Below, in pieces: positions 26,647 through 47,647 of a stretch of DNA of 54,757 bases. A program made the position numbers and the translations under genes. Location: positions 1 to 54,757 of the forward strand of contig JAEULK010000101.1 in assembly GCA_016793775.1 (NCBI GenBank), written 5' to 3'. The notes beneath the pieces are model-generated. The model was not told the DNA's origin and did not search any database. It saw only the letters and a program-made list of their open reading frames with translations. Position 1 is the first letter of the stretch; each line of letters starts with the position of its first letter. The DNA comes from Sphingopyxis sp. (GTDB taxonomy: Bacteria; Pseudomonadota; Alphaproteobacteria; Sphingomonadales; Sphingomonadaceae).

Positions 26647-26729
26647 CGGCGTGCAGGAAACGCGGGTTATTCTCGCACTGGCTGCAATAGCTGGTGCGCG
26701 GGAGCCCCCGCCTTGATAGGGTGACGAAG

Positions 26730-27836: not shown

Positions 27837-28091
27837 TTAGATCGCCGTGCTGATGCGATACGGTCCTTTGCGAAGGGGGAGGGTCTCACCCTTCCAGCTG
27901 AGCTGCACCAGATTCTTGGCGAGCATGCCGTCGATTGCGGCATGGTCCGTTGGCATGGTGCTGCGCCAGTTCGGTCCGTCGATTATCGCGCGAGCGACCT
28001 CACTCGGACATACCGAACCCCCAGGGAACCGGGCGGCCAGAAGCGCGAGAACTTCCTCACATACTTTATCGTCCACGCTCGCCTCCACCAC
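27837..28091 (-). CDS. DUF3253 family protein
   Basis: The 84-residue protein has the DUF3253 pattern: GGSVCPSEVARAIIDGPNWRSTMP (~24-47 region) and KGPYRIS at the C-terminus, a small winged-helix-like fold of unknown role. The start is probably a GTG (28091 or 28088) and lies within the end of the UVR-motif gene upstream, overlapping it by 26 bases, so the two are likely coupled. Confidence 0.7.
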   Translation of the reverse strand: MVEASVDDKVCEEVLALLAARFPGGSVCPSEVARAIIDGPNWRSTMPTDHAAIDGMLAKNLVQLSWKGETLPLRKGPYRISTAI

Positions 28092-28359
28092 GCGACGAGC
28101 GTCCTTTGGTCATAGGGTCTGGTTTCGGTGGCGGCTTCCATCCCGGAGGCGGTGTCATGCGTTGCTGGTTCGTGCCGAGTCCCATCGCCCCAGGCCGCTG
28201 CCGCTCGATACCGGACAGGTCCGCCTTCTCTGCCTTGTCGGGGGTCGCGCCGCCGCGCAAAAGATTGATCTGGTCTCGGCAGCGGCGTGCCTCTTCGAAG
28301 TCGAGGTCGGCCACGGCGGCTTGCATTCTCTTTTGAAGTGCTTCGATTGTGTTGGCCAT
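28066..28359 (-). CDS. UVR-motif (UvrB/UvrC-type) small protein
   Basis: The 97-residue protein begins MANTIEALQKRMQ and carries a single UVR motif (ALQKRMQAAVADLDFEEAR, ~7-25; CRDQINLL). This helical hairpin mediates contacts between UvrB and UvrC. A stand-alone copy is of unknown role. The C-terminal half is Pro/Gly/Arg-rich and disordered. A start 15 bases upstream (28374) is also possible; I prefer 28359 but neither has a good ribosome-binding site. Confidence 0.6.
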   Translation of the reverse strand: MANTIEALQKRMQAAVADLDFEEARRCRDQINLLRGGATPDKAEKADLSGIERQRPGAMGLGTNQQRMTPPPGWKPPPKPDPMTKGRSSRGGGERGR

Positions 28360-28540
28360 TCTTACATTACGCATGACCCGAGGATTGGCCGCATCCAGTT
28401 GGCAGCGCCTGCATCTCGCCGGATAAGTTGCATACGAAACGATGTGTTGCGCTGTGGCATCAGTAAGAAAGAATCGCCGAACCGGTGCGGCAATTTCTAT
28501 GGCCTCTTCCTTGCGTTGAAGTATGTGCCACCCGCGACCC

Positions 28541-28597
28541 GATGAAGGGGCTCCTTCATCACAAAAACTTGGCGGCCGTTCCGGCCGCCTTTTTTTT
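28541..28597 (+). terminator. Double hairpin with poly-T tail
   Basis: An 8-bp hairpin (GATGAAGG/CCTTCATC, 28541-28560) is followed by a 7-bp GC hairpin (GGCGGCC/GGCCGCC, 28571-28589) and eight T. This is a strong plus-strand intrinsic terminator, yet no plus-strand gene is seen upstream; a small RNA or a lost gene could precede it. Confidence 0.65.
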
Positions 28598-28671
28598 GGG
28601 CTGATTGCAATTCCGGCGACTGGCGGCTCAGCGCCCGATGTCGGTCGTTGCGGCCGCCGGCAACCAACGCT

Positions 28672-28688
28672 CGAAAGCGGACATTCGG
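28672..28688. repeat. Copy of the GAAAGCGGAC intergenic motif
   Basis: The sequence CGAAAGCGGACATTCGG is one of about six similar short sites that lie in the spaces between island genes (others near 28755, 28835, 36071, 39595 and 47495). Confidence 0.45.
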
Positions 28689-29023
28689 TTTCACGGTGAT
28701 CAGAGGCAGCAGTGCGCCCCACCCAAGCCATTCGGAGGTATCGATCAAATACCCGAAAGCGGAAATTAGACCGAGCGGGCCGGCGGCAGGAATGTCGGAC
28801 AACCCGGAAAGCTCCTTTCAGAAACGCCGACTGAGATAGCGGACGTTCTAAGTTGCGAACCGGCATGTAAAATTTCGTCGACATTGCTGAGATGTTTAAG
28901 CTGCGAGGCAAAAAGGCAGTTGCGACTAATTTGTAGGTGCGCTCAGAGCTTGCGCCAGAGCAGCGCCTCGAGCTTGTCGATCTGAAGTGCGACCGATGAC
29001 GGCGGAACATCAAATGCATCTAC

Positions 29024-31982: not shown

Positions 31983-33104
31983 ATGATCCGCATCCTCCAC
32001 ACAGCCGACTGGCAGCTCGGCAAGCCGTTCGCGCGCTTCCCGGACGAGGTCCGTTCGGCGCTTTCCGAAGCTAGGCTCGATGTCGTCGACAAGATCGGCG
32101 CGCTCGCGCGGGAGCAGGAGGCCGGCCATGTGCTGGTCGCAGGCGACGTTTTTGACAATGTCGATCCGGGCGATCGCATCCTTACGCAAGCGCTTTCGCG
32201 CATGAGCCGGGCCAGCACGACCTGGTGGCTCATGCCTGGAAATCATGATCATGCTCGCGCCGACGGCCTCTGGTCGCGCGTTCGCCGCCAAGCGCCACCC
32301 AATGTCCGTGTGCTCGATCGTGCGGAAGCGGTGGAACTTGAGGAGCAGGCCTGGCTGCTTCCCGCGCCGCTCGAGCATCGGCGCACGCGGGACGATCCGA
32401 CAGAGTCTTTCGCCTCGATGTCCACGCCCCTGGGCGCAATCCGTATCGGTCTTGCACACGGGTCGATTACCGATTTCGGTGGCAGCAGTCCCGCCACGAA
32501 CGTCATTCCACCCGATCGGGCCCGTCAGGCGGGCCTCGACTATCTTGCGCTTGGCGACTGGCATGCTCATCTGCAAATCAACGATCGCACAGCCTATTGC
32601 GGTACGCCCGAAGTCGATGGCTTCGGGAGTGAGGAGCCCGGCAGTGTTATCCTCGCCGACTGCGCCGCCGGCGGCCCTCCGAGCCTGCAGCGCGTTCGAT
32701 CAGGAACTTATTGGTGGCTGACCCAGATATGGGAACTTCATGGTCGTGATGACTTCACGAGCGCGCTTCAAGGGCTGCGCGTGTCGGACGATCTCCCGCG
32801 GACTCTGCTCGACTTGCGTTTGGAGGGCACCGTTTCGCTCGCAGACCGCATCGCGATGCTGGATGAACTTGGGACCGTGCTCGCTCATGAGCTGCGCTGG
32901 CTCGACCTGCGTCATGAGGGCCTCGCGATCCGACCAACCGAAGACGATATCGCCGAAATCGATGTGCAGGGGACGCTTGCCAATGCGGCATCGCTGCTGG
33001 CGAGTAAGGCCGACGCGGGCGGCGACGAAGGATCGCTCGCGAGCGCCGCGCTCGAACGGCTCTATGTCGAAGCACTACGCGCGCAGCGGGAGGCTGACGC
33101 ATGA
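31983..33104 (+). CDS. SbcD/Mre11-like metallophosphoesterase
   Basis: The 373-residue protein has the Mre11/SbcD nuclease signature: ILHTADWQLGK (~4-14), VAGDVFDN (~52-59), MPGNHDHARADG (~85-95), an AHGS motif (~160) and GDWHAH (~190). It should cut DNA ends or hairpins with manganese. It overlaps the following ATPase gene by 4 bases (ATGA) and must form a complex with it. The C-terminal cap is about 150 residues. The motif order is canonical, but the pair is not near core replication genes. Confidence 0.85.
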   Translation: MIRILHTADWQLGKPFARFPDEVRSALSEARLDVVDKIGALAREQEAGHVLVAGDVFDNVDPGDRILTQALSRMSRASTTWWLMPGNHDHARADGLWSRVRRQAPPNVRVLDRAEAVELEEQAWLLPAPLEHRRTRDDPTESFASMSTPLGAIRIGLAHGSITDFGGSSPATNVIPPDRARQAGLDYLALGDWHAHLQINDRTAYCGTPEVDGFGSEEPGSVILADCAAGGPPSLQRVRSGTYWWLTQIWELHGRDDFTSALQGLRVSDDLPRTLLDLRLEGTVSLADRIAMLDELGTVLAHELRWLDLRHEGLAIRPTEDDIAEIDVQGTLANAASLLASKADAGGDEGSLASAALERLYVEALRAQREADA

Positions 33105-35740
33105 AGCTACGTGCGCTGGAAGTCGCCAATTTCCGCAAATTCCGCAAGCCGCTCGAGATCACCGGCATTGCCGAGGGGCTCAATATCGTCGTCGAACCGA
33201 ATGAGGCGGGAAAATCGACTCTTCTCGAGGCATTGCGCGCCGCGCTGTTCATTCGCCATTCGGCGAAGAGCGAACTCGTGCGGTCGTTTTGCCCGTTCGG
33301 CGACGAGGTGGGGCCAAGGGTCGGGCTCGATTTCGAGGTCGATGGCGAGGCATGGCGGCTCGACAAGCAGTTTCTCAAGGCGGCATCGATCACGCTCGTC
33401 GGCCCTTCTGGCCGCTTCGAAAGCGACGCCGCTGAGGACCGGCTGCAGACCCTGCTTGGCTTCGACAAAGGTAACAATCGCGGCACCGATCCTGAAAGCC
33501 GCGGTGCGCTGGGCCTGTTGTGGGTTGAGCAGGCGAGTGCGTTGGCGGTCGAACCACCCGGCCATCTCGTGCGCAACAACATTCGCAGCGCTTTGGAAGC
33601 CGAAGTCGGCGCCGTCTTGGGTGGTCGGCGGTTTGAGCTGGTGCGGGCGCGGATCGACGAAGCATATGCCGCGCTCAGAACGGCCCGCACTGGCAAGCCA
33701 ACCGGGCGTCTGGCGGAAGCCGAGTCCCGTGCCGCCGAGGCCGGCGCGCGCCGAGAGGTGGCTGAGGACCAGCTGCGATCCTACGAGCAGTCGCTCGCTG
33801 CCCTCGAGCAGGCGCGCACTCAGAAGCGGCTCATCGAGCGCGAGCTTGAGGATCCCGAAATGGCCGAGCAGCGGCGCAAGCTTGCCGAAGATCTCAAGCT
33901 CGCCGAATCCGCGCAGCTGCGTCTGACTGCGGCACAGGCGCGTCATGCAGAGGGCGAAGCCCAGCTAAAGGCGCTCGATCAGGCGCTTGCGGCCTTCGAG
34001 CACGCCGAAAGCGCCGTGCATGAGGCGCTTGCCGTGCGCGACAAGGCGAACGCAGCGCTGGCCGCGCATCGCCAGGACCATGAGATGGCGGTGGAAGCAG
34101 AGACCACTCGGCGCACAGCGCTAGCCGAGCGTCGCCAGGCACGCCGCGATGCGCAAGGCGCACTCGACGCAGCGCGGACGATTGCTGAGGGCAATGCGCG
34201 GCGGCAGGCCGTTGCCAGGGCCCGCGCACAGCTCTCACAGGTTAAGGCGGCTGAGCAGGCGATCGCCGTCAAGCGCGACCTTGCGAACTCTTCGCTCACC
34301 GCAAAAGATGTCGAACAGCTCGCCGCCCTCGACCGCAAGGTTACCGAAACGCAGACGCTGCGCGATGCGGGTGCGGTCTCGATCGAAGTCGAATTGACCG
34401 AGGGGCAAACGTTCACGATCGATGGTGAACCGGCCACGGCCGGGCGTCATGACGTCCTTCAGGCGACTACCTTTGCGATTGGTAAGGCTGCCCGCCTGAC
34501 CATTACCCCTCCCGCCGTTGTCGGACGAAGTGCCGTGGACGCCCACGACGCGGCGCTCGAGGCGTATCACGACAAGCTCGCAGAGCTGGAGGTTGAGAGC
34601 TACGCAGCCGCGGTTAAGCGCCTCAATGCGGCCCAGAACGCGCGCGATGAACTTGTTGTGCTCGAGCGACAACTCGCCGCTCTGTGCCCAGGCGATATCA
34701 CACTGGATCTCGCGCCCGGCGCAGCTGCCCTCAAACTATTCCTTGAAGATCAGACCGCAGATGCGGACGATGCGGAAGCCGAACCCGACCTTGCGGCCTT
34801 ATCGAAGGCGCTCGACTTAGCGAACGAAGCCGAACAGCATGCAATTGGCCAGCACGAGAGTGCCCAGCAAACGCATCATCAGGCCGAGACGCGACTCGTT
34901 CAGCTCGGCGCTGATACGGCGACGGCGGAGCGCGACGTCGCCAGTGCGCAGGCGCAGCTCACGGCGCTCGAAGGCGAGCACGATCGGTCCGCACTCGCGG
35001 CACAGCGCCAGGCGGCAGGGGAAGACTATGCGCGCCGGGTCGACGCGCTTGATCAGGCTGAACGCGCCGCCGGCGCGCTCGATATCGAGCGGATTCGCCG
35101 CAGTATTGCTCACCAGGATCAAGCTCAGACGCGGGCCCAGGAAGAACGCCTCGCGCTCGTCGCGAAGATCGCGTCGCTCGAGGCCACCGTGGCGAGCGAG
35201 GGACCCAAAGGCCTCGCCGGCATCGCCGCTGAAACGCGCGAGGTGGAGGAGAGCGCCGCCGCGCAGCTGGTACGGCTGACGCGCGAAGCCGATGTCCTCG
35301 CGCTTTTGCGCGACACCTTACGTGAGGCGGGCGACGCGGCGGCGCGGACTTTCCTAGGGCCTGTCACCCGCCGCGCCGCCCGTTATGTCGAGCGTATCCT
35401 TCCTGGCAGCGATCTCGTTTTCGCCGAAGATATGGGGTTAGTCGGCGTGCGTCGGGACGGTTTCGACGAGGGCTGCGGTGATTTAAGCCGTGGGACGCAG
35501 GAGCAACTCGCCGTGCTCACGCGTCTCGCTTTCGCCGACCTTCTTCTTGATCGTAAAGCGCCAGTCTCTCTCATTCTTGACGACCCGTTGGTCTATTCCG
35601 ATGATGCTCGCCTCGAGGTCATGACCGATCTGCTTGAGGAGGCTGGCACGCGGATGCAGGTCATCCTGCTCACCTGCAGGTCCAAAGCCTTCCGGCATGT
35701 TGCAGCCCATCGCATCGACCTTGCGGGGGCGTCCGCGTGA
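33101..35740 (+). CDS. SbcC/Rad50-like ATPase lacking a zinc hook
   Basis: The 879-residue protein has the N-terminal Walker A VEPNEAGKSTLLEAL (~32-46) and a C-terminal LSRGTQEQLAVLTRLAF signature (~790) with Walker B LILDDPLVYSDD (~830). Long coiled-coil arms lie between. The position where Rad50 carries the CxxC hook has instead a beta-rich insert (~425-475, EVELTEGQTFTID) and no CxxC is present. It works with the SbcD-like nuclease encoded just upstream. Confidence 0.85.
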   Translation: MKLRALEVANFRKFRKPLEITGIAEGLNIVVEPNEAGKSTLLEALRAALFIRHSAKSELVRSFCPFGDEVGPRVGLDFEVDGEAWRLDKQFLKAASITLVGPSGRFESDAAEDRLQTLLGFDKGNNRGTDPESRGALGLLWVEQASALAVEPPGHLVRNNIRSALEAEVGAVLGGRRFELVRARIDEAYAALRTARTGKPTGRLAEAESRAAEAGARREVAEDQLRSYEQSLAALEQARTQKRLIERELEDPEMAEQRRKLAEDLKLAESAQLRLTAAQARHAEGEAQLKALDQALAAFEHAESAVHEALAVRDKANAALAAHRQDHEMAVEAETTRRTALAERRQARRDAQGALDAARTIAEGNARRQAVARARAQLSQVKAAEQAIAVKRDLANSSLTAKDVEQLAALDRKVTETQTLRDAGAVSIEVELTEGQTFTIDGEPATAGRHDVLQATTFAIGKAARLTITPPAVVGRSAVDAHDAALEAYHDKLAELEVESYAAAVKRLNAAQNARDELVVLERQLAALCPGDITLDLAPGAAALKLFLEDQTADADDAEAEPDLAALSKALDLANEAEQHAIGQHESAQQTHHQAETRLVQLGADTATAERDVASAQAQLTALEGEHDRSALAAQRQAAGEDYARRVDALDQAERAAGALDIERIRRSIAHQDQAQTRAQEERLALVAKIASLEATVASEGPKGLAGIAAETREVEESAAAQLVRLTREADVLALLRDTLREAGDAAARTFLGPVTRRAARYVERILPGSDLVFAEDMGLVGVRRDGFDEGCGDLSRGTQEQLAVLTRLAFADLLLDRKAPVSLILDDPLVYSDDARLEVMTDLLEEAGTRMQVILLTCRSKAFRHVAAHRIDLAGASA

Positions 35741-35799
35741 GCCGCGTGTTGGGCACCTTCATCGCGGCGGGAGGCGCTTGATGCTGTTCGGTCAGCTCA

Positions 35800-36111
35800 A
35801 TGACTATATTTTACGCTCTTCTCGGGCTCGACCGGCACCTCTACGAGGCGGTGAGCGTGAAGATTTGCGAAAATTTCTATCGCAGCGACCTGCGCTTTCC
35901 GAGTCAGGTCGAGATTGTCGGCCTGGTCTACGAGACGCTCGCGAGCAATGCCGATCTGTGGCGTGAGGACGAAGCTCCGGTCGTGCTCGATCAGGTCGTC
36001 ACGCGAAAAGGGCGGCGTATTCGTCGGGCAAGAATGAAAGGCGACTTCTGCCCGAGAGATCCGAACGTAGGAACGTCCGCTTTGTTGGCGATGGCTGACA
36101 TGCGGAAATGA
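35800..36111 (+). CDS. Hypothetical protein, possibly truncated
   Basis: The 103-residue frame begins MTIFYALLGL and contains the protein-like stretch NFYRSDLRFPSQVEIVGLVYE and a GRRIRRARMKGDFCP block. The last 15 or so codons run into a degenerate intergenic repeat motif (36071-36084), so the original C-terminus may be lost. It lies just after the SbcC-like gene on the same strand. I do not recognise the family. The ribosome-binding site is poor. Confidence 0.4.
   Translation: MTIFYALLGLDRHLYEAVSVKICENFYRSDLRFPSQVEIVGLVYETLASNADLWREDEAPVVLDQVVTRKGRRIRRARMKGDFCPRDPNVGTSALLAMADMRK
36071..36084. repeat. Copy of the GAAAGCGGAC intergenic motif (inverted)
   Basis: GAACGTCCGCTTTG is the reverse complement form of the motif. 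It lies at the convergent end between the SbcCD-like pair and the helicase. Confidence 0.4.
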
Positions 36112-36169
36112 AAAGGGAATGACATAGCCGGGTACCTCGCCGAAAACTGCCAGTCGGAAATCGGCCAGG

Positions 36170-39100
36170 CTACTCGAACAGAGCATCGAGCGTGGCGAAC
36201 ACGCCGGCGGTACGCCACAGATTGCGATTACCGATTACGTATAGGGCCTCTTTGGCGCGCGTTACTGCGACGTTGAGGAGGTTGGGTTGTTTGCCAGCCC
36301 AAGCGCGGGCGCCTGTCTGATCGGCATTGGGAGCGCCGAGCACGAAAATCACCGCCTCGGCCTCGCGGCCCTGCACCGTGTGGATGGTTCCGACACGCTC
36401 ATAGACCCAGCTGCCGAGCTCCGGGATTGCGGCATTCAGGGCGGCGCTATCGCGGATCGCGGCGCGCAGGCCATCGGCGACCTGCACGAAGGGCGTGACG
36501 ACATAGAAGTCGGGCGCAATGCCTTTCGCGATGATCTGCTCCAGCAGACGGACCGCCTCGCGGCCTTCATCTGGGCACCATTTGTCGCGCCCTGAACCTT
36601 CGACGTTGATCCAGCGCGACGGTCCGAGACAGGCGCGAATGTCTGAATTGCGGGGCGTTTTAGCCTGCACCATGAGATTTTCATAGGCGATGCTGTTGGC
36701 GATCTTGAACATTGGCTCGCAGCAGCGGCGATGGACAAGCAGCGGAACGCCGACCGTTCGGCTTCCGGCGCCCGACGGAAACTCAGCGAACCAGGCGGTA
36801 GCATCATCTGCCAGTGTCTGGACCGAGGCCGCGGGGGCGCCGAAGCGCTCGGCATCCACTCCGAAGCTGCGGCAGATGGCGCCGACAAGATCATCGGGAA
36901 GCATCACGACGGGCGGGACCTGGATCGGGTCGCCGACGACGACGGCATGGTTCGCACGCAGGAGCGCGCCGACCGCTTGCTGCGGCGCCGCCTGACCTGC
37001 TTCGTCGATGAGAAGCCAGCCGAGCGATTGGGGCGGCAGCTTTCCGAGCATCGCGCTGACCGACGCGAAGGTCGTCGAGACCACCGGCACGACCAAGAAA
37101 AGGCTCGACCAGATATCCGGTATCACCGCGTCGCGCGCGGGTGAGCCGAGACCCTTTCCATCTAGGACCTGCATCGCGAGGCCGAGATTGTGGCGAAGCG
37201 GTTTCGCAGCGGCATCGAGAAAGGCCCGGTGTAGATCCATAGCCGCTTCGAAAAGGGCATCACGTTCGCGATGCTCGGCCTTGGTCAGCCAAGGCGCCGC
37301 CTTCTGAACGATGGTGTGGCCATTCTCGAAAAACTCCTCGTCGATGATATCGCCCGTACGCGCTCGCTTGTCGCGGCGCCATTCTGCCGCCATTGGCGCG
37401 AGCTGCTGGCGAAACGCGTCGGCTTGTTTCGCGGCGCCAAGTCCGAGCCAGGGCGAGCGGCCGAGTTTTAGCAATTTGCCGTCCGGCCATGATTTTTCCT
37501 GCGACGCGCTTTGGCACGCATCGACGAGCGCATAAGAAAGCGGAGCGTGATCGGCTTCCCAGTCCCGATAGCAGCGAGTTCCGAAGAGGCGGTGGAACCA
37601 GCTCGGCCGACCGGCGCCATGCGCTTCGACCGCCTCGAAGCGCCGCTCGATGACCGGCAGGTGCAGTCCGCGGACGCGCAGCAGTTCGACTTGCGCGAGT
37701 ATGTCGTTGACGCGCCTTTCGAGCTCACGAAAGCGCTCGCGCTTCTGCCGCCAATTGCCCAGCGCCTCGCGCCGGCTGCGCGGCGGATCGAGCGCGGTGA
37801 CGATGTGAGGTGGTCGTGATGGCTTGCCGGGCTCGTCGATCTCTGCCTCGCGGCCATCTACTGCTTTCAGATATGCGAACAAACCATTGTCCGCGTTCCA
37901 CCAGAAATCATCCTTGAACGCATAACGATTGGATGAATTGCCGAGAATCGCGGCGATCAGCCCCCAGCTCGGCCCGCCAACCATCGTCTGCGCAATGGGT
38001 TCGAAATAACGCATGTCCGAATCTTCGGCGATGGCGCCTTTCGCCGGGAGCTCACCGCTGACATTTTCCACCGCTTTATTGTTCGATGAAGCGACGAGAA
38101 TCTCGAAACCCTTTAGGCGCGGATCGAGCCGGTAGAGATGGATCCAGGCTGCACCCGCTTTCAGCGTTTCGCCCGACGCGGTGAAGGCCTGTTCGGGATC
38201 GGCAAATCCCGCCATCACGCTCGCTCGTGCAGTCACAAGGGCGGCGACAACATCGCGGAGCAGTGTCGTTTTGCCCGTGCCCGGTGGACCATTGACGGCC
38301 AGTATCTCGCCCGTCGCCGTTGCGGCGGCGAGATTGACCGCCGCCTGCTGCATCAGGACGAGCGGGTGGCGGCCGAGACCCGGCCACCGGCCGGCTGGAA
38401 TGGAGGCGGGTGCAACGGCCTCTTCGATTGCCAAGGCGTCGTGCTTCAGATCGCGCCGCTGTGCGGGTTGTTTTGCGCCGAGGTAGCGCAGTAAGAGGTC
38501 GGGTGCATTGCGACCAGCGCAGAGCTTGCTGGCTGACGCAAGGTCCTTCAGGAAGAAGCTGTTGAGCAGTAGTGCCTCGGGCGGGTCTTTTGATTTGAAC
38601 GGGACGAGGCTGCGGACAGCGAAGCTCGGCGGGCGGAGAAGTGCCGGCTCGATGGCGAATTCAGCTGCTAGCCACTCATAGGCGGCGCGAATTGCTTTTT
38701 CGTCGAGCGGAAACGGTTTTCCGTCCGATCCTTCGCGGTACAGCCGCTCGTGCAACGCTTCGCCAATACGCTCTTCCTCGCCCGGCCAACGCGCGAGCGC
38801 GGCGGGCCCTTCGCACAAGATGACCGGTAGCCCCCAGCCGAAACTCGACAAAGTGGCGCATTCATCTTCAATCGGTCGGCCGTCACGATCGACGATAACG
38901 ACCGCAAGCGGCGTGTCGCCACGCGCCTGCGGGCGTTCGGCCCGTCCATCGCCGAAGCGCTGGAGTAGCCGATCTACCGCTCCCGCCATATCGATCGATC
39001 CGAGGACGATCTGGTAATAGAGCCGCTTTCCGGGCGGACCTTTTGCTCCGCTTGCCCAGGGCAGGCCGCGATCCAGGCGCGCGATTCTTTTGATGTCGCC

Positions 39101-39544
39101 CGCAAGATCGGCGGGCCGCCGGTAGCTCGTCGGAGAGAGAACCTCGAGTGCAGTCCACGCCTGCAATATCTCGACCGGATGGTTCGACCCGTCGGTTCGC
39201 TCCGGCAGGGCAATGATGGGCAGTGCCGTCTCAGCCGGCATCGTGGCAGATGGACTGAAGTTGGGGGGCGGAATCTCCCGCGCTGTTGGGCGGACCCTCG
39301 CCGGGGCTGGCGCCGGCTTCGGCGCGGGCTGGGCGACCTTCGTCGCGCTGGCCTTCGGCGTCTTTTTTGCCACGGCCAGTTGGTCGCGCAAGCGCCCCGC
39401 GCGCGCGGTATTCCGGTGACGCAGCTCAGCGAGGATTAGCGCATCGGTGGCCGCATTCTTGCCGGCGAGCGTTTCCAGTTCGGCAATACCGGACTGGGCA
39501 AAAGGACGGTTCTTGAATGACATCTCGGCGGCTCTGTTACGCAT
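36170..39544 (-). CDS. UPF1-like SF1 helicase with AAA domain
   Basis: This 1124-residue protein is a superfamily 1B helicase. Walker A is VNGPPGTGKTTLLRDV (~415-430), motif II LLIDEAGQAAPQQ (~845), motif III VVGDPIQVPPVV (~870), and late motifs GTIHTVQGREAEAVIF (~1055) and VAVTRAKEAL (~1090). The N-terminal 100 residues are Pro/Ala-rich and disordered. Between the motor halves lies a large insert with a coiled-coil-like region (~560-700). It is the last gene of the minus-strand set, 72 bases after the WYL-TerB gene. The start may be ATG 39544 or 39523; neither has a good ribosome-binding site. Confidence 0.8.
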   Translation of the reverse strand: MRNRAAEMSFKNRPFAQSGIAELETLAGKNAATDALILAELRHRNTARAGRLRDQLAVAKKTPKASATKVAQPAPKPAPAPARVRPTAREIPPPNFSPSATMPAETALPIIALPERTDGSNHPVEILQAWTALEVLSPTSYRRPADLAGDIKRIARLDRGLPWASGAKGPPGKRLYYQIVLGSIDMAGAVDRLLQRFGDGRAERPQARGDTPLAVVIVDRDGRPIEDECATLSSFGWGLPVILCEGPAALARWPGEEERIGEALHERLYREGSDGKPFPLDEKAIRAAYEWLAAEFAIEPALLRPPSFAVRSLVPFKSKDPPEALLLNSFFLKDLASASKLCAGRNAPDLLLRYLGAKQPAQRRDLKHDALAIEEAVAPASIPAGRWPGLGRHPLVLMQQAAVNLAAATATGEILAVNGPPGTGKTTLLRDVVAALVTARASVMAGFADPEQAFTASGETLKAGAAWIHLYRLDPRLKGFEILVASSNNKAVENVSGELPAKGAIAEDSDMRYFEPIAQTMVGGPSWGLIAAILGNSSNRYAFKDDFWWNADNGLFAYLKAVDGREAEIDEPGKPSRPPHIVTALDPPRSRREALGNWRQKRERFRELERRVNDILAQVELLRVRGLHLPVIERRFEAVEAHGAGRPSWFHRLFGTRCYRDWEADHAPLSYALVDACQSASQEKSWPDGKLLKLGRSPWLGLGAAKQADAFRQQLAPMAAEWRRDKRARTGDIIDEEFFENGHTIVQKAAPWLTKAEHRERDALFEAAMDLHRAFLDAAAKPLRHNLGLAMQVLDGKGLGSPARDAVIPDIWSSLFLVVPVVSTTFASVSAMLGKLPPQSLGWLLIDEAGQAAPQQAVGALLRANHAVVVGDPIQVPPVVMLPDDLVGAICRSFGVDAERFGAPAASVQTLADDATAWFAEFPSGAGSRTVGVPLLVHRRCCEPMFKIANSIAYENLMVQAKTPRNSDIRACLGPSRWINVEGSGRDKWCPDEGREAVRLLEQIIAKGIAPDFYVVTPFVQVADGLRAAIRDSAALNAAIPELGSWVYERVGTIHTVQGREAEAVIFVLGAPNADQTGARAWAGKQPNLLNVAVTRAKEALYVIGNRNLWRTAGVFATLDALFE

Positions 39545-39594
39545 CAGGTGATTTGAGAGAGGAAGGCGCGTTGTGGGTGGGCAGTCGCTCCAGT

Positions 39595-39611
39595 CTGAAA
39601 GCGGACCCGTG
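39595..39611. repeat. Copy of the GAAAGCGGAC intergenic motif
   Basis: CTGAAAGCGGACCCGTG lies in the 72-base space between the WYL-TerB and the SF1 helicase genes. Confidence 0.35.
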
Positions 39612-39616
39612 AATTT

Positions 39617-40393
39617 CTAGTTTGTCATCCAGTCGATATAGCGCGCGATCCAATGATGTTCTTCGGGCGCAATTCGGCCGTCGGCCTCGATCACCCGCTT
39701 CGCATAGCCCGCCACGATCGGACGCAGCGTATCCGAAGCGCGGATGCGCTGCGCCGCCAGGACGAAGGCCTCGACGTCAGGCGCCATGCGCCGGATATGA
39801 GCCGAGATATCGGCCTCGGGAAATGGCGCGCGAATCTCGGCACGGATCCACCAAGACGCGGTGAAGGTGTCGATCTCGTCATTCTCCGCGGCATCGACAT
39901 GCCCGTCGCATCGCGACAAAAATATGAGTGCCGTCAGGCCGGCGCCAAGGTCGGCGCGCTGCACCGGGGAGAGGCCCCAACCAAGGGGGCTCTCGCCAAT
40001 TCGATCGTCAGCGAAGGGCGCAAAATAGTCGGTGCCCCCAGCCAGTTCCTCGCCGGTCTCGGCGTCGTGGACGGCTTCGATCCGCGTCATCAGGAACACG
40101 CGCTGCGCGCGGCGGTGATGGCAAAAGGCTCGCAGATAGCGCTTGCCCTGTCCCGTCTCGATGCGGATGCAGCTGACCTGTCGCAGCGAGGCGGCTCCCT
40201 TCGCGTCGCGATAGGAGATGATGATTGTCAGGCCGTTGACGCTGTCGCCTGCGGGTTCGCGCATAGCCGGCAAATCGACGGGAGCTTCATCGGAATCTTC
40301 TTCCGGCAGGCGGGGCGTAAAGCCTTGAGGCGACGGCGCTTGCGGAACGCTTACGCCAAATCGCTCGCGAACCAGTTCGAGTATCTGAAGCAT
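39617..40393 (-). CDS. WYL-TerB fusion protein
   Basis: The 258-residue protein joins two domains. Residues ~54-112 form a WYL-like domain (ISYRDAKG, RYLRAFCHHRRAQRVFLMTRIEAVHD) typical of regulators that sense nucleic-acid ligands. Residues ~145-258 form a TerB-like helical bundle with two metal-type D-x-x-x-x-x-x-E sites, RCDGHVDAAE and EADGRIAPEE. There is no obvious DNA-binding helix-turn-helix. It lies 46 bases after the SF2 helicase. It is probably a sensor or adaptor for the operon; this is inference. Confidence 0.75.
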   Translation of the reverse strand: MLQILELVRERFGVSVPQAPSPQGFTPRLPEEDSDEAPVDLPAMREPAGDSVNGLTIIISYRDAKGAASLRQVSCIRIETGQGKRYLRAFCHHRRAQRVFLMTRIEAVHDAETGEELAGGTDYFAPFADDRIGESPLGWGLSPVQRADLGAGLTALIFLSRCDGHVDAAENDEIDTFTASWWIRAEIRAPFPEADISAHIRRMAPDVEAFVLAAQRIRASDTLRPIVAGYAKRVIEADGRIAPEEHHWIARYIDWMTN

Positions 40394-40439
40394 ATGAACC
40401 TCCGTCCGTGTCAGCTAAGGTCAAAATGATGGGCGACGG

Positions 40440-42656
40440 TCATGACAGCGCCCGCGCGATGTCGCGGATCATGTCGCCTACATCGGTTTCGAGGTGCGCA
40501 TGGCGCTTGACCCAGAAGCGGCGGAGCAGATCCTCGGGAATATACTCGTCATACTTCTCATGGGCGAGATTGGAGACGAAGCGGCCAAGGATTTCGATCG
40601 GCGGGCAACCATCGAGCGCCCCGAGCACTTGGGCCGCCTCGTCTGAAGGGGTGCCAAGGAGCGTCACCCCGACGTCGAACGTCTCGCACTCGAACCCGAC
40701 CGATCCGAGCAGCACCGCCAACAGGCCATTGGCGACGCTGCCGCGCCAGGTCATGAGATGCGTATCCTTGCCGGCCGCGATCAGCGGCGTTCTCGCGAGG
40801 TCGAGCGCGGCGAACATCTCGCGCCCTTCGGTGAGCAATCGGGCAGCGACGGGGTCGAGATAGGCCGGCATGTCGGATGCGACGAGCGCGTCGCGGATCG
40901 CACTTGCGAGCCGATCGTGGATCGGTTCTCCCGACACGCGATCGAATTTCGGGATACGGCCGGCACGATGGGCAGCGACCTCGACGACTTTCGCCGGGTC
41001 GTCGATAGCTACCGCGCGCCACCGGCGCCCGGCGAAGGACAGGATGCTTCCGACCGCGAGTGCATTGACGATTGGCAGCGTGCCAAGCGACCGGCCCTGA
41101 TGGACGAGGCGCCATTCTTCATCCGTCTTGAAGTTGGCGTAAAAGTCGCGCGAGGCCGTGAGCCGTTCGCCAAGCGGCCCGAGCATCAACGACCCGTCGG
41201 GCGCCTGTTCGAGCATCGGCTCTTCTCCACCGCCGAGCCCGCGCAGCAAATCTGCGAAATCGCCAGGTTCGATCGCCGCGAATGGGCCATCGCGGCCGAT
41301 TGCCTTATAGAGCTGATCGGCTCGCTGCGCGCCGCGCTCGGCAATGCGCGACAGTAGCTGGTGGACGGTGACCGAGAGGAGGGCGGAATCGCCCAAAGGC
41401 GGCTCCACGAACCGCTCGGCAAGCAAGTGCAGCGCCGCGACCGACTGCGCAACGGGAAGGTGAAGCCGGTCAAGCGGATCGGCGTCGGCCGCCAGATAGG
41501 GCTCGCGGACATAACCCCGGAAGATGGCCGCGCTGCCTTCGCGCCGCCCCGACCGGCCAAGCCGCTGGCGAAGCGATGCGAGCGAGCGCGGCGCTCCGAG
41601 CTGTGCGACGCTGTGGACAGACCCGATATCGATTCCGAGCTCGAGCGTCGTCGTGGCAACTGCGGTCGTCGGAAGGCGATCCTCTTTGAGGCGCGCCTCG
41701 ACTTCTTCGCGCAATTCCCTGGCGAGGCTTCCATGGTGCGGGAAGAACTCGTTCGGCACGCCGCTGTCTTCCGACAAGGTCCTGAGGCGGTCGGCAAGGG
41801 CTTCGACGTTGGCGCGCGAACCGGCGAAGAAGAGATTGTTCTTGCCGCGCAGAATCTCGTGCGTGTGCCGTGCGATCTCGGCGAGGGCACTGCGAACCTC
41901 GAGGTCCGCCGCTGGCGGGCTCGTCTCCGGTGGCTCGACGACGGCACGTATCTGAAGCTTGAGCGGCGCGCCGCCGCCATCGACCGCGATAATCTCGGGT
42001 TGCGGTGTTCCGCCGGCGAGCCAGTCGACCGCATGCTGCTTGTCGCCAAGCGTTGCCGACAGTCCGATACGGCGGGCGCGGCCAAGCGAAATGGCATCGA
42101 TCCGGTGCAACAGGCTCCACAGATGAAGCCCGCGCGGACCCTGAAGAAACGCATGGAGTTCGTCGATCACGATCGCGTCGAGCCGTCCGAACATCGCCTC
42201 GATACTTGCGGGTCGCCGCACAAACATCGCCTCGATGGATTCGGGCGTGATGAGCACAACGCCCTCAGGTGACTTCAGTAGGCGCGTCTTCGGGCCTTGG
42301 GGCGCGTCGCCATGCCAGCGCGTCAGTCCGATTTCGAGATCCGCGCAGAGGCCTTCCAGCCTTTTATGCTGGTCGTTGATAAGCGCTTTCAGCGGAGCGA
42401 CATAAAGGATTGCGACCCCGCTATCCTGCCGTGCTGCGGCTGCGCCGAGAAGTGGCAGGAAGGCCGCTTCCGTTTTTCCAGCAGCGGTTGCCGCTGCGAT
42501 AAGGATGTCGCGGCGGTGCCCCGCAATGGCCATGATTGCGCGCGCCTGGACCTCGCGCAGCTGCGACCATCCCTGCACGCGTACCCAGCGCTGGACCTGC
42601 GGATGCAGTCGGTCGAATGCTGCTGCGGGATCAGAGAGTGAAGTCGGCAAGGCCAT
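40440..42656 (-). CDS. Lhr/BrxHI-like SF2 helicase
   Basis: This protein of about 738 residues is a superfamily 2 DExH helicase: Walker A AAATAAGKTEAAF (~50-58), DELH box VIDELHAFL (~162), SATL (~200) and RLGRSGR (~365). The C-terminal 300 residues are like the extra domain of Lhr-type helicases. BrxHI of BREX systems belongs to this group. I prefer ATG 42656 (MALPTSLSD) over an earlier in-frame start at 42704. It overlaps the upstream ATPase gene by 26 bases, so the two are coupled. Confidence 0.8.
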   Translation of the reverse strand: MALPTSLSDPAAAFDRLHPQVQRWVRVQGWSQLREVQARAIMAIAGHRRDILIAAATAAGKTEAAFLPLLGAAAARQDSGVAILYVAPLKALINDQHKRLEGLCADLEIGLTRWHGDAPQGPKTRLLKSPEGVVLITPESIEAMFVRRPASIEAMFGRLDAIVIDELHAFLQGPRGLHLWSLLHRIDAISLGRARRIGLSATLGDKQHAVDWLAGGTPQPEIIAVDGGGAPLKLQIRAVVEPPETSPPAADLEVRSALAEIARHTHEILRGKNNLFFAGSRANVEALADRLRTLSEDSGVPNEFFPHHGSLARELREEVEARLKEDRLPTTAVATTTLELGIDIGSVHSVAQLGAPRSLASLRQRLGRSGRREGSAAIFRGYVREPYLAADADPLDRLHLPVAQSVAALHLLAERFVEPPLGDSALLSVTVHQLLSRIAERGAQRADQLYKAIGRDGPFAAIEPGDFADLLRGLGGGEEPMLEQAPDGSLMLGPLGERLTASRDFYANFKTDEEWRLVHQGRSLGTLPIVNALAVGSILSFAGRRWRAVAIDDPAKVVEVAAHRAGRIPKFDRVSGEPIHDRLASAIRDALVASDMPAYLDPVAARLLTEGREMFAALDLARTPLIAAGKDTHLMTWRGSVANGLLAVLLGSVGFECETFDVGVTLLGTPSDEAAQVLGALDGCPPIEILGRFVSNLAHEKYDEYIPEDLLRRFWVKRHAHLETDVGDMIRDIARALS

Positions 42657-43935
42657 CGTCTTCAGCCGCGATCTCTTCGCCGACCGCGCCGTCATCCTGT
42701 TCAAGCGCGATCGCGCCGAGAAGCTGCGCCCATTCGGCGCCCGGATTCTGCTCTAAGACGGCTAGGAATTGAACGAATGCTTTGATCGTGTTTCGCGGTG
42801 TCCGGAAATAGGCTTCGCCGATCCGCTGATTGCAATGCTCCATGAAGGCCGCGAGCGCCGCATTGGGAACGAGATATTTTGAAGCATCGCCAAGAGCGAA
42901 GACCGACCGGATATTGCCGAGTAGTACGAGGAAATCCTCGGGGGACAGATTCTGGAGCCGGATGACGGGCCCTGTCATGTCGACGAGGCCGTGCGCCGCG
43001 AACTGGTTTTCGGCCAGCCGCGACTGGAGCGCTTCATAGCTGTAGAGCCCACGCCGGCTGTCCATCAGAAACTCCGGGGTTCCGCCGAAGATGAAGCCGA
43101 GACCTTCCGAATTGCCCTGCAGCATGTCGTTGACGATCCGCAGGATCTGCTCGAAATTCTGGTTGCGCGCCTGAGCGCTTTGCAGCTTGTAGATGTTCAC
43201 CATCTCGTCGAACACGACGACAAGGCCCGAATAGCCCGCCAGCCTCACAAATTTCGCGAGAAGTTTCAGGCTGTCATAGACATCGGCGTCGTCGATGATC
43301 GAGCGCACCCCGAGCGCCTGGCGCGCCTCGGTCTTTGTCGGATATTCGGCGCGCAGCCAACGCAGCGCTGCCGCCTTCAGAGCGTCGTCGCCGGTTTCGC
43401 TCCCGCGCCAATAGCATTTCAGGACTTGTGCGAAATCATGGCCGCCTACCAATTCCTGAATCTCGCCAAGACGCGTGTGGATGGCTTGCTCGACCGTCTC
43501 GCCTCCGGTCTCGGCCTCCTTGACGCATTCGCTGATGAAGCGCTCGACGACACTTGCGAGCGCGCCTCCATCGGCTTTGGTCCGGGTTGCCATATGCCGC
43601 ACTGCCTCGGCATAAAGGCCGCGCGCCTGCCCGCCCGTTGCATGAATGCGGCGGTCGGGGGCTAGGTCGGCGTGGATCGTTACGCAGCGTCGCTCGAGCG
43701 CGATCAGTCTGACGAGGCTGAGGAAGAAGGTCTTGCCGGCGCCATATTCGCCGATGATGAACCGTACCGACGAGCCGCCGTCGACGATCCGGTCGACATC
43801 CTTGACGAGCGCGCCGACCTCCAGCGCGCGGCCGACCTGGATATGCTGGAGGCCAATGCGCGGAACGACGCCGGCGGCTAACGCCTGAACGATAGTGTCG
43901 CGTTCACGCGGCTTCACCTGTGCGGGCTGGGTCAT
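42631..43935 (-). CDS. BrxD-like ATPase (DUF2791/BREX ATP-binding domain)
   Basis: This ATPase of about 434 residues has Walker A IIGEYGAGKTFFLSLV (~60-75) and Walker B LVVVFDEMVNIYK (~240). It belongs to the DUF2791-type ATP-binding proteins; BrxD of BREX type 2 is such a protein and is usually encoded beside the helicase BrxHI, as here. The ATG at 43935 overlaps the upstream stop (ATGA). A sensor-like region GDASKYLVPNAALAAF follows. No other BREX component is present. Confidence 0.8.
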   Translation of the reverse strand: MTQPAQVKPRERDTIVQALAAGVVPRIGLQHIQVGRALEVGALVKDVDRIVDGGSSVRFIIGEYGAGKTFFLSLVRLIALERRCVTIHADLAPDRRIHATGGQARGLYAEAVRHMATRTKADGGALASVVERFISECVKEAETGGETVEQAIHTRLGEIQELVGGHDFAQVLKCYWRGSETGDDALKAAALRWLRAEYPTKTEARQALGVRSIIDDADVYDSLKLLAKFVRLAGYSGLVVVFDEMVNIYKLQSAQARNQNFEQILRIVNDMLQGNSEGLGFIFGGTPEFLMDSRRGLYSYEALQSRLAENQFAAHGLVDMTGPVIRLQNLSPEDFLVLLGNIRSVFALGDASKYLVPNAALAAFMEHCNQRIGEAYFRTPRNTIKAFVQFLAVLEQNPGAEWAQLLGAIALEQDDGAVGEEIAAEDDGLADFTL

Positions 43936-46900
43936 GGTTTTTGGATCATTCCTTTGAGCGTGGTCAGGATATGTGGCTGCAGGCAATAGATGTCCTCATC
44001 TTCGATCGCGACCTCGTCGAGGATATCGAACGCCCAATCGTTGATCGTCTCGATCGCACCGCCGGGAAGAAGCTTCTCGCGCTTGCAGAGCGAAGCGAAG
44101 ACATCGGCTTCAATGGGGCTCTCGATGAGCGCCATGAGAAGATGGCTATGGGGAGCATCTAGTCCGGCGAAGAGCGCTTGCTCTTCGGCCTGGAGCGGTG
44201 CGGCGGGTTCCGGTTCGTTTTCGGGGTCTTCCTCCCGGAAGATCGAGGCGAGCATGGTAGAGACGGCGGCCGTTTCTTCGCGGATGCGAGCGAGCTTGTC
44301 GCTATCGATATCTCGCGAAACGCGGGCTGCGGCCTTGTTCGGGGTGGGCGCAGGTGACGGCGCATCAGGTCCGGAATGCAGCCGCGAATAAACTTCATCC
44401 TGCGGCTTCCCGAGCAATTTGTAGAGGCCCTCGAGAAAGCGCACCTCGGTCGGGGTGACGCGCTGATCGGCAAGCACGGCATTGATGACGGACTGCAGAA
44501 CCATTTCTTTGTCGGCAGGGGTGAGATCGGCAACGCGCTTGGTCGCGGCGCGCAGCTTGGGCGGATTGTGCACAAGCGCATGCATGTGCGCCTCCAGCCG
44601 CGTGCGCTCCGGCGGCGTGAGTTCATTAAGTGCCCCGAGATCGCGCACGATCGATTCCAGTTCGGCCTCGACGACCAGATTATCAGCCTGTGCGGCGAGA
44701 ACTGCGATCTCTACCATCGTTCGTGCAACGTCATACCGTCCGCTGCCCGCCGCAGGCGCACCCGAGGTAGCGTCAAACAGGCACAGGGTCATATCCTCGC
44801 TGAGCGTCGGAGCCGGCCCGAAGCGCTTGTCGGGTTCGAAACCGACTTTCATTGCATCCAGGATATCGCCGAGACGCTTTCGATAATTTTGCCGTTGATC
44901 TTTGGCCTCAATTGCCCCGTTATCCAAAAACAGATCGAGGAGTTCAGCAAGCTTGACGGGCGCGAAGCCGGTCCCTGCGATCCTTTCTTCCAGCTGGCTT
45001 CGCACCAACGCATAGCGGCCTGAAGGATCGCGCGACCGGATCAGCGGCGGAGCGAGCGCGGCGGCGAGCACCGAGCCTTGCTCGGCGGGGTGGCGGCCAA
45101 GGAAGCGGCTCAGGGGATCGAGCGCATCGGTGCAGTCGTTGAGCAACTGTTCGAACTTGGCGACAGGGGCACTGATCGAAGCGATGTCGGGAAGATGGTC
45201 TAGTGACGCGATTGCGTTAAATTCGCTGCTTGCCGAACGATATTGATAACTTAGCCGCGTCTTGGGTTTGGCGACCTTGATCCCGCCCGGAAAGCGAGTC
45301 TCATATTCATGGTGCCAGAGCGCTTTGAAGTCGTCGAAGCACCGCTTCGCCGCGGTGCGGGGCCAGATTTGCGGATGCGCCAGCGCCCAGCAAAGCGCAT
45401 CTTCAGCGCCTATCGGCTCGCCCTTGGCAACTTTCTCGCCGAGGTAGAGCCGGACCGGTATTGGTATTTCCCAAGCGTAGCGAGACTCGATCGATGCGGT
45501 GAGACTGTCAGGAGGCGATCCATGCAGGACTTGGGCGGCATCCATCAGCGAACGAGCGTATCCGGCGAAACTGTAGTTGTCGCCGTAAACCGACAAAAGC
45601 GCATCAAGCTCGCCCATAATGGCGCCGGATTCGTCCGCTGCCTTCGCTTTGACGAGCCGTCTTTCGAGACCGTAAAAATAAAGGAAAACATAGCCGATAG
45701 GAGTTGCCGGATTGCGTCTGCCGTCGGCTAGCCATTCAATATAGGCTCGCCGCGCACCGGGCTGAAGCTCGCTATAGTGCGGCCAATAGCCGAGGCTGCT
45801 ACCGCTGCGGTCGGACCACGCCCCCAAGGGAAGCGCGGGGTCGACGAGGGCGCGGTGCCGACCCTCCTTCCTGGCCGGTGAACCGAAGTAAAGAAGCTCG
45901 GCTTCGAAATCGATGTCGCCGACAGTTACCCTTGTCGCCGCTGCAATCCAGCGTTCGGCGGCGATGTTGCGTCCAGTCGATGCTCGCGGGCGACCCGTCT
46001 CCGCCGCTGTCTTGGATGAAAAGAGCGATGAAAGGGCGCTATGAAAACCCGTCGCTACCTGCTCGCTGCCACGCTGCGCTGCAGGAATAGTTCGCTCAGA
46101 CTGTTGTACCAGGCGCGGATCGGGCGGGCGGATCGAGTTGGACGCGACGCCGCGCCGCCTTTCGGCATAGTGGCGGGCCTGGTCGAATGTCGTGAAAATA
46201 TAACCGCCGCAAGCGAAGCGTCCATCGCCGGTCTCGTGCACTTCCGGCCAGTGCGGGAAGGGCAGGCTGTGCGGCGTCGTTGTGCTCGCGGGATTTTCGG
46301 GCTCAGTGACGATCGCCGTTTCAGCCGGCACATCCTCAGCCGCAGAACGCAAGATCGCGGGAGACGCGGTGGTGGCAGTAGAAGGGCGTGGCGGTGCTCC
46401 TGCGGGAAAAGTCGGCTTGCGCTTGCGCTTTCGCTCCGCCGCCGCGCGCGCTTGCTCGAAACTCGAATAGCTTAGCCCACCGCTCGCATAGCGCCCGTTC
46501 TCGGTGCGCCTAACGTCCGGGTCGCTGGTATCGCCCGCTTGCTCGGTGACCGGGCGTTCGGAGTTCGGACGTTCAGCAAAGGTGCGATCGGTGCGGTGCG
46601 TATGCGCGGGAAGAGGGCTAAGGGGCCTGCGTTGCCGCTCCGCGAAATCTCTCGCCTGTTGTTCGGTTGTAAAGCTGAACCCGCCGGCCACGAATCGGCC
46701 ATCACTGCGGGCCTCCACGTCGGGATCGGCGAGCAACTCCGTGCCGGCAGATGGTGTGCCAGACGTCGACTGTGCCACATGGCTTTGAGGTGACGTCAGC
46801 CGATGGCGTTCTCGGTCTGGCGCGTCTTCGGTTACCGTCTCGCTTGGTCGCGCCACGGATTTGCCGGGGATTGCCATCAACAGCAGCGACAATGCAAAAA

Positions 46901-47237
46901 GCACGAGACCAACAGGCGGTGCGATAAGCAACGCGAGATATGCGCTGCCGTTGATCAGCGCCAGCCAACCACTCAGTCCGATGTCGTGGAAACGGCGAAC
47001 CTGAAGCGCGAACCAAGGAACTGCAGTTGCGAGCCACCACAATAAATAGATGAGAACAGCGTTTGGCGGGTCGGCGGCAGGGTCGGAGACATTTCCTATC
47101 TGGGCGTCGAAAAGCGAGCCGAAGACCGTGAACATGAAGACAAGCGCCGAAAGACTGAAAAACAGCCAGAATTCACTTCGTCCCGAGCGACCCTGAAAAT
47201 CAGCATAGCGCCATAAAGGCCGCAATAAATTCGCCAT
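43932..47237 (-). CDS. Membrane-anchored TerB_N/TerB/TerB_C protein with DUF805 domain
   Basis: The protein of about 1101 residues has an N-terminal DUF805-like membrane domain (~1-125; four hydrophobic segments, FQGRSGRSEFWLFF and VRRFHDIGLSGW). A disordered region follows with three similar ~33-residue repeats (~171-204, 239-272, 330-363), each reading like DGRF-x-x-GG-x-x-F-T-x-x-QAR-x-x-AERRR. The remainder is a TerB_N domain (~438-650), a TerB-like helical part (~850-935; AVLADQRVTPTEVRFLEGL) and a TerB_C domain (~1010-1101). Its stop overlaps the BrxD-like start. I chose ATG 47237 as it precedes the DUF805 domain directly. TerB domains are linked to phage, colicin and metal stress. Confidence 0.8.
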   Translation of the reverse strand: MANLLRPLWRYADFQGRSGRSEFWLFFSLSALVFMFTVFGSLFDAQIGNVSDPAADPPNAVLIYLLWWLATAVPWFALQVRRFHDIGLSGWLALINGSAYLALLIAPPVGLVLFALSLLLMAIPGKSVARPSETVTEDAPDRERHRLTSPQSHVAQSTSGTPSAGTELLADPDVEARSDGRFVAGGFSFTTEQQARDFAERQRRPLSPLPAHTHRTDRTFAERPNSERPVTEQAGDTSDPDVRRTENGRYASGGLSYSSFEQARAAAERKRKRKPTFPAGAPPRPSTATTASPAILRSAAEDVPAETAIVTEPENPASTTTPHSLPFPHWPEVHETGDGRFACGGYIFTTFDQARHYAERRRGVASNSIRPPDPRLVQQSERTIPAAQRGSEQVATGFHSALSSLFSSKTAAETGRPRASTGRNIAAERWIAAATRVTVGDIDFEAELLYFGSPARKEGRHRALVDPALPLGAWSDRSGSSLGYWPHYSELQPGARRAYIEWLADGRRNPATPIGYVFLYFYGLERRLVKAKAADESGAIMGELDALLSVYGDNYSFAGYARSLMDAAQVLHGSPPDSLTASIESRYAWEIPIPVRLYLGEKVAKGEPIGAEDALCWALAHPQIWPRTAAKRCFDDFKALWHHEYETRFPGGIKVAKPKTRLSYQYRSASSEFNAIASLDHLPDIASISAPVAKFEQLLNDCTDALDPLSRFLGRHPAEQGSVLAAALAPPLIRSRDPSGRYALVRSQLEERIAGTGFAPVKLAELLDLFLDNGAIEAKDQRQNYRKRLGDILDAMKVGFEPDKRFGPAPTLSEDMTLCLFDATSGAPAAGSGRYDVARTMVEIAVLAAQADNLVVEAELESIVRDLGALNELTPPERTRLEAHMHALVHNPPKLRAATKRVADLTPADKEMVLQSVINAVLADQRVTPTEVRFLEGLYKLLGKPQDEVYSRLHSGPDAPSPAPTPNKAAARVSRDIDSDKLARIREETAAVSTMLASIFREEDPENEPEPAAPLQAEEQALFAGLDAPHSHLLMALIESPIEADVFASLCKREKLLPGGAIETINDWAFDILDEVAIEDEDIYCLQPHILTTLKGMIQKP

Positions 47238-47647
47238 CGCATCCAAAGCCCCCCTGAGCCCGGGGCAGCTTGTCGAACGTGCGGCGGATAAACAAGCGGT
47301 TATCGACAAAGATCGATTAAGGGGACGCCGTCAAACTTATCGCGAGGGCACCCAAAGAACCCATGTTCAGGGTGCTGCGACCCCGTATGCAACTCTTGAG
47401 AAAATAGTCCAGATTGGATGGAATTTATGAGTATCAGGACCTGCCGATGCAACCGTGCTGATCGATCGAGTGCATTCCCCTTCTCGGCAATTAAGGTCCG
47501 CTTTCGCCTGTTTTCGGCCTGAAAGCCGACAGACTGCAACCGGCCACAAGCGGGCAACGGGCTAAAGAGCGCTTGCTGATTGTCTTGTCGCATGTGGGGG
47601 CAAGGCAGCAGGATAACGAGGTCGGACGGCTCGCGCGATCGAAATGC
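47238..47647. other. Intergenic region at the right island edge
   Basis: No convincing gene. It includes the promoter of the TerB operon and a copy of the degenerate motif (GGTCCGCTTTCGCC, 47495-47508) in a stretch that resembles decayed intergenic repeats of sphingomonads. Confidence 0.45.
47495..47508. repeat. Copy of the GAAAGCGGAC intergenic motif (inverted)
   Basis: GGTCCGCTTTCGCC is the reverse form of the motif, located outside the TerB operon near the right island edge. Confidence 0.35.

Follow-up and report, generated by a model that had tools for sequence, protein, structure and literature searches.

A stretch of Sphingopyxis sp. DNA (contig JAEULK010000101.1 of assembly GCA_016793775.1; all 54,757 nucleotides of it are called the window here) carries seven large genes at 31983–47237. 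We hold with high confidence that the three genes at 40440–47237 are the anti-phage system Shango, that the next two genes on the same strand, encoding a WYL-domain protein and a superfamily 1 (SF1) helicase, are probably passengers or optional accessories, and that an SbcD/SbcC-like pair on the opposite strand is a separate module. A preliminary description had taken the seven genes as one undescribed system; that claim is dropped here, and the core is filed as Shango. The genes are as follows.

43932–47237, minus strand: sngA, with hydrophobic segments, a DUF805 membrane domain, a linker with three DGRF-type motif copies, TerB_N, TerB and TerB_C
42631–43935, minus strand: sngB, an AAA+ ATPase of BrxC/BrxD-like type; its Walker A reads GEYGAGKT and its Walker B VVVFDE
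40440–42656, minus strand: sngC, BrxHI-like superfamily 2 (SF2) helicase, in which Walker A and motif VI are seen
39617–40393, minus strand: WYL-domain protein of 258 amino acids whose C-terminal half is probably TerB-like; lies beside Shango in the same orientation and is not among its conserved genes
36170–39544, minus strand: SF1 helicase of 1124 amino acids with AAA_11 and AAA_12; co-directional neighbor and occasional companion of Shango
31983–33104, plus strand: SbcD-like metallophosphoesterase (Pfam Metallophos), first gene of the separate two-gene module, with Asp-Trp-Gln at motif I
33101–35740, plus strand: SbcC-like SMC-type ATPase (Pfam AAA_23 and AAA_27), second gene of that module

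All three Shango proteins are encoded in the window by adjacent genes, and the PADLOC models for them match over nearly their whole lengths: SngA with 281.6 bits (profile positions 24–527 of 528), SngB with 589.6 bits (4–438 of 439) and SngC with 764 bits (4–711 of 720). In the Pfam scan, SngA gives TerB_N at 158.6, TerB_C at 85.1, DUF805 at 67.5 and TerB at 28.8 bits, and SngB gives BrxC_BrxD at 511.1 bits. These domains, DEAD and Helicase_C in SngC, WYL in the 258-residue protein, AAA_11 and AAA_12 in the SF1 helicase, and Metallophos, AAA_23 and AAA_27 in the SbcD/SbcC-like pair all score above their cut-offs, in agreement with the domains first assigned, the membrane domain of the TerB protein included.

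Shango is a published and tested three-gene anti-phage system of a TerB protein, an ATPase and a helicase, according to excerpts of PMC10250203. It came from a core defense hotspot of Pseudomonas aeruginosa PA14 and was assayed in PAO1, phage protection being shown for the P. aeruginosa operon, and the same excerpts mention its identification in Escherichia coli immune islands. An excerpt of PMC12278908 places SngC with BrxHI, DruE and DpdJ in a potentially distinct SF2 clade. The preliminary description had allowed that its system might be catalogued under another name, as the PADLOC models now indicate, and had proposed a role in defense, which fits a core that, as judged from sequence, is a known anti-phage system.

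All seven reading frames are open as first reported, and the coordinates bear out the junctions. sngA runs from an ATG at 47237 to a stop ending at 43932, with an alternative TTG start at 47309. sngB starts with the ATG at 43935, and the shared ATGA makes a 4-base overlap with sngA; sngC starts with the ATG at 42656 and overlaps sngB, which ends at 42631, by 26 bases. The WYL gene follows 46 bases past sngC, and the SF1 helicase gene another 72 bases on. The SbcD-like and SbcC-like genes overlap by 4 bases and face the minus-strand set across 429 bases. Because a scan for promoters and terminators found sites at about the frequency of shuffled sequences (4 vs 3.1 and 14 vs 14.4, respectively), no transcript ends were assigned.

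How many of the seven genes belong together was examined by co-occurrence. An SngB alignment was scanned against one genome per species for 84,980 species, giving at least 592 matching stretches, of which 558 were confirmed. The 80 best of these were retained, with flanks of up to 10 kb on either side. These 80 loci (numbered with L below), as the best of 558, lean toward the closest kin of the window. A length of 21,000 bases or more is reached by 52 of them and 15,000 or more by 63, and 5 are shorter than 8,000, so that some flanks are incomplete.

SngC is found in 80/80 and SngA in 79/80 of the loci, the exception being a contig (L043) whose end falls within SngB. The order A-B-C on one strand with adjacent genes is kept in 79/80. 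When the 1086 open reading frames (ORFs) were clustered, three families appeared in 78, 76 and 73 of the 80 loci, and the next largest in 7. The ORF caller picks the longest frame, by which starts can be misplaced and antisense frames chosen; the 7-locus family includes an antisense frame over sngB (L079), and the core families fall slightly short of 80 because of such picks.

A BREX type 2-like system that had lost pglZ, pglX and brxA/B could in principle leave a similar core, as SngB and SngC do match the BrxD (156.3 bits) and BrxHI (400.6 bits) models of PADLOC. The likeness to BREX pointed out in the preliminary description is real, with SngB resembling BrxD and SngC resembling BrxHI. However, the Shango models fit both proteins far better, and SngB, at 156.3 bits, is far below the NCBIfam BrxD cut-off of 350. 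Among the window genes scanned, which are a part of its ORFs, PADLOC found no PglZ, PglX or BrxA/B, and neither did Pfam for PglZ and PglX; the seven genes include no methyltransferase, as first noted. Outside the core, the most widespread family reaches 7 of the 80 loci, and therefore no BREX gene is a conserved neighbor of Shango. A BREX remnant is ruled out by the scores, and we assign it a negligible probability against Shango.

The other four genes are rarely found near Shango. No SbcD- or SbcC-like match of at least 60 bits lies within the fetched flanks of the 80 loci, where the weak single matches are 41 bits for SbcD (L083) and 43 bits for SbcC (L064). The SF1 helicase matches in two loci, L067 and in part L068, its profile giving four further matches of 22–26 bits to another helicase family, and the WYL protein matches weakly in one, L035.

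The same was seen in 387 genomes drawn evenly from the class of the window, which were searched at E limits of 1e-60, 1e-30, 1e-20 or 1e-6 depending on the query. With the window's own genome included, SngB occurs in 6/387, the WYL protein in 9/387, the SF1 helicase in at least 7/387 and the SbcC-like protein in at least 15/387; the last two counts are lower bounds, as for these queries scoring was limited to the top two candidates of each genome. Six Shango stretches from five other genomes of the class contain no WYL, SF1 or SbcCD match, and four of the six hold all three core genes. Conversely, Shango genes have no match at 6 SF1 helicase loci or 14 SbcC loci fetched from other genomes of the class. 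Shango and the SF1 helicase are on different contigs in one genome (G136), as are Shango and SbcC in two (G054 and G243).

The view of the preliminary description, that all seven genes make up a single new system of nucleic-acid surveillance in which the SbcCD-like pair is the nuclease arm, draws on the convergence of the two sets at a distance of 429 bases. Shango and an SbcCD-like pair also share two plasmids, pSWIT02 of Rhizorhabdus wittichii RW1, where a stretch of about 16 kb that includes transposase genes separates them, and a Polymorphobacter megaplasmid, where they are about 59 kb apart. However, the pair is absent at 60 bits or more from all 80 Shango loci, and in the reverse direction 29 SbcC-like loci from elsewhere show no Shango match save one of 37 bits to helicase motifs (L165). 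The preliminary description had itself named rare co-occurrence of the pair and the TerB operon as the finding that would speak against it, and rare it is. Three genes also suffice for functional Shango in the excerpts of PMC10250203, and our literature search found no paper treating both Shango and SbcCD. The co-occurrence counts rule out the seven genes as one system, and we consider such a system extremely improbable.

Alternatively, the WYL and SF1 helicase proteins could be accessory subunits that extend Shango to a five-gene operon, in which a sensor of WYL ligands might, for instance, gate the system and a second helicase might widen its range. The genes are on the same strand with the short gaps described above, and relatives of the SF1 helicase are close to Shango in L067, in two Azospirillum plasmids and partly in L068, a company that is not random given its recurrence at several loci. 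In L035, a WYL/TerB relative adjoins SngA, and beyond it lies a large ORF of a helicase family also found in L070; against the SF1 profile this ORF scores just 26.1 bits. WYL-TerB fusions are reported in excerpts of a survey of defense regulators (PMC4012209).

On the other hand, among the 80 Shango loci the WYL protein is near one (weakly) and the SF1 helicase near two (one partial), and the two occur together in no other locus searched with both. The SF1 helicase is without Shango in 6/6 loci fetched from other genomes of the class and in the stretches fetched from plasmids pLGM and pC280_1. Among plasmid records, 680 match SngB at E 1e-60 and 636 match the SF1 helicase at E 1e-20, the latter covering over 80% of its length in just 15. 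By eye, the listed matches place the two a few kb apart in the two Azospirillum plasmids, and we therefore read the helicase as a companion that Shango meets now and then in islands, and not as a subunit. For the WYL protein, a search of 72,556 plasmid records at E 1e-5 gave no match. We thus judge the five-gene operon unlikely, if more credible than the seven-gene system.

The two genes were not retained as a pair of their own, either. No WYL match is near the 6 SF1 loci of the class or the fetched plasmid SF1 loci, and no SF1 match is near 8 loci with WYL relatives, in one of which (L150) the WYL query itself is below the limit. Around another WYL relative (L146), the five genes scanned are of folate and sarcosine-oxidase type.

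The description of the WYL protein as WYL-TerB holds for its WYL part, which scores 33.8 bits in Pfam (cut-off 21.8). The TerB part is weaker, with a sub-threshold DUF533 match of 21.0 bits (cut-off 29.6), and the relative in L035 likewise has a sub-threshold TerB match of 21.4 bits (cut-off 24.4). An AlphaFold model of the protein was too poor to be used (mean pLDDT 41.9).

A helicase-family ORF of about 1145 amino acids is near Shango in 5/80 loci (L035, L045, L046, L063 and L070). In L070 it begins about 30 bases past the end of the SngC match and has RNase_H_2 and AAA_12 domains, which are likewise present in a TM0106-type protein adjoining an SbcCD-like pair on a plasmid (L161).

The closest relative found is on pSWIT02, where SngB is 80.7% identical, SngC 66% in its best segment and SngA, also with DUF805, 43%. 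There, hypothetical genes on the opposite strand come after SngC, and the 25-kb Shango stretch contains no WYL, SF1 or SbcCD match. In the metagenome contig L043, SngB is 79% and SngC 66% identical, and after them comes a large opposite-strand ORF without a match to the other proteins of the window.

A strongly hydrophobic segment is ahead of TerB_N in 48/72 SngA proteins; in shuffles of the same regions the count averages 7.07 and never exceeds 14. Such segments are in the first 120 residues of 0/77 members of the SngC family and 0/73 of the SngB family. The test used simple hydropathy with rough start sites, and 6/78 SngA ORFs were excluded because the part before TerB_N was under 25 residues or no match was obtained. 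The result points to frequent membrane localization of SngA, with DUF805 as the form that the anchor takes in the window. In PMC10250203, on PA14 Shango, the word ‘transmembrane’ is absent and ‘membrane’ is used for gasdermin only; we do not claim that anchoring is unreported.

The linker between DUF805 and TerB_N in SngA contains three copies of a DGRF..GGYSFTT.DQA-type motif, running downward on the minus strand from about 46703, 46499 and 46226. SngA of pSWIT02 likewise has three DGRF-type copies, and weak matches to the linker are in L036, L037, L041 and L042; Pfam reports no family for the repeats. Upstream of sngA on the minus strand, ORF families of about 665, 236 and 1026 amino acids recur together in four sphingomonad loci (L036–L039).

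Several observations weigh against the assignment of the core to Shango with the other genes outside it. SngA of the window is 1101 amino acids long vs a family median of 826.5, DUF805 has no tblastn match in the 80 loci, and 24/72 SngA proteins lack a hydrophobic segment ahead of TerB_N. Two of the Shango stretches from the class are incomplete by the queries used, one having SngB without an SngC match (L012) and the other without an SngA match (L013), possibly through decay or divergent partners. At the limits used, no solved structure matched SngA, SngB or the SF1 helicase, and SngC matched general helicases only; the literature search found no mechanism for Shango. The tight packing of the five minus-strand genes fits one transcript, and to this are added the SF1 relatives near Shango (L067, partly L068 and the Azospirillum plasmids) and L035 with its WYL relative and another large helicase. 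What sequence comparison shows is the identity of the three core proteins, the order that their genes keep, the hydrophobic N-terminus, and that linkage to the other four genes is not conserved.

The SbcD/SbcC-like pair is kept as a pair wherever it was fetched: in 14/14 loci from other genomes of the class, at one place per genome, and in 15/15 plasmid loci, with SbcD matching only in part in one (L169). The plasmid loci were fetched from 34 records with SbcC matches. The SbcD-like protein is below both NCBIfam cut-offs, with 60.6 vs 77.65 bits for TIGR00619 and 36 vs 750 for NF041754. Motif I of Mre11/SbcD is Asp-x-His, and the zinc hook of SbcC is CxxC. In an alignment, 16/18 SbcD-like proteins, that of the window included, have Asp-x-Gln at motif I and two keep His, motifs II–V being kept; a pattern search found no CxxC in the SbcC-like protein of the window. 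In PADLOC, the SbcD-like protein has no match and the SbcC-like protein has partial, weak matches only.

On plasmids, the pair is neighbored by AbiE and other Abi genes, restriction-modification and conjugation genes, a SIR2 gene with an ATPase, and an ATP-dependent endonuclease with a helicase; no defense gene is evident from annotation near the pair in L168 and L171. We take the pair as a separate two-gene DNA-processing module in the same island, outside Shango and plausibly also defensive. With its Asp-x-Gln motif, it lends itself well to a functional test of its own.

On five Sphingobium or Rhizorhabdus plasmids, at least three of which share the same replicon cluster, the pair is beside a TM0106-type RecB-like nuclease, annotated only as a nuclease in one. 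Because this nuclease is not at the other fetched plasmid loci, the three genes were not taken as a system.

Just upstream in the window, 29024–31666 on the minus strand encodes an 880-residue AAA_13-type ATPase; its match to PDC-S06, a defense candidate in PADLOC, is almost full-length and scores 553.3 bits. Other window genes scanned are mostly ordinary, among them those for catalase, glycoside hydrolase 130, alcohol dehydrogenase and Cpn60, and the GC content falls from 0.69 at 24–26 kb to 0.58 at 28–30 kb. Given the PDC-S06 gene, the ordinary genes elsewhere and the GC fall, about 28–47 kb may be a defense island, with approximate ends. Four bases past the PDC-S06-like gene, 28066–29019 encodes a 317-residue UVR-motif protein. 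At 26323–27659 on the plus strand, a DUF736 protein gene is followed by one for a single nucleotidyltransferase and HEPN protein, possibly a fused toxin-antitoxin.

We conceive that SngA would sit at the inner membrane, anchored through the hydrophobic domain at its N-terminus, as a scaffold or sensor, and that the AAA+ ATPase SngB (BrxC/D-like) and the SF2 helicase SngC (BrxHI-like) would act with it. The target could be incoming or replicating phage DNA, addressed without a methylation mark. This division of labor, DNA as the target and every activity are inferred. For work on Shango, two by-products may be of use: the recurrent hydrophobic N-terminus of SngA offers a testable place for the Shango complex, the membrane, and the DUF805-containing SngA a natural variant with a different anchor.

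As judged from sequence, the core adds one more example to a published system, in a locus that is mostly ordinary. What may set the locus apart is a Shango with a multi-pass, DUF805-tethered SngA next to a separate Asp-x-Gln, hookless SbcD/SbcC-like pair that stays together in genomes and on plasmids, often amid defense genes, and might be an undescribed two-gene module for defense or plasmid protection. Neither is described in the papers examined; we offer this tentatively, as a possibility that is somewhat doubtful. If true, the DUF805-containing SngA would be the extreme of an anchoring that roughly two in three tested SngA proteins seem to share, and Shango would be a membrane-tethered, DNA-processing defense.

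Compared with known systems, the core shares with Shango all three proteins, the gene order, the overlapping genes and the combination of a BrxD-like ATPase, a BrxHI-like helicase and a TerB protein. It differs in the DUF805 domain and repeat-bearing linker of SngA, common to pSWIT02, and in the WYL and SF1 helicase genes downstream on the same strand. With BREX it shares a homologous ATPase and helicase, but PglZ, PglX and BrxA/B are missing from the scanned genes and SngB is far below the NCBIfam BrxD cut-off. The C-terminal helicase part of the SF1 helicase matches MkoC of Mokosh in PADLOC (184 bits, best stretch residues 808–1112 only), but the Pfam scan found in the protein no PLD-like domain, which excerpts of PMC10952713 list for Mokosh types I and II, and Mokosh was ruled out on this ground. 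Like SbcCD and Mre11-Rad50, the plus-strand pair consists of a metallophosphoesterase and an SMC-type ATPase with overlapping genes, but it is below the NCBIfam SbcD cut-offs, has Asp-x-Gln at motif I and no CxxC found. In Zorya, a membrane-anchored part works with a DNA helicase, and the proposed arrangement of Shango resembles it as an idea only.

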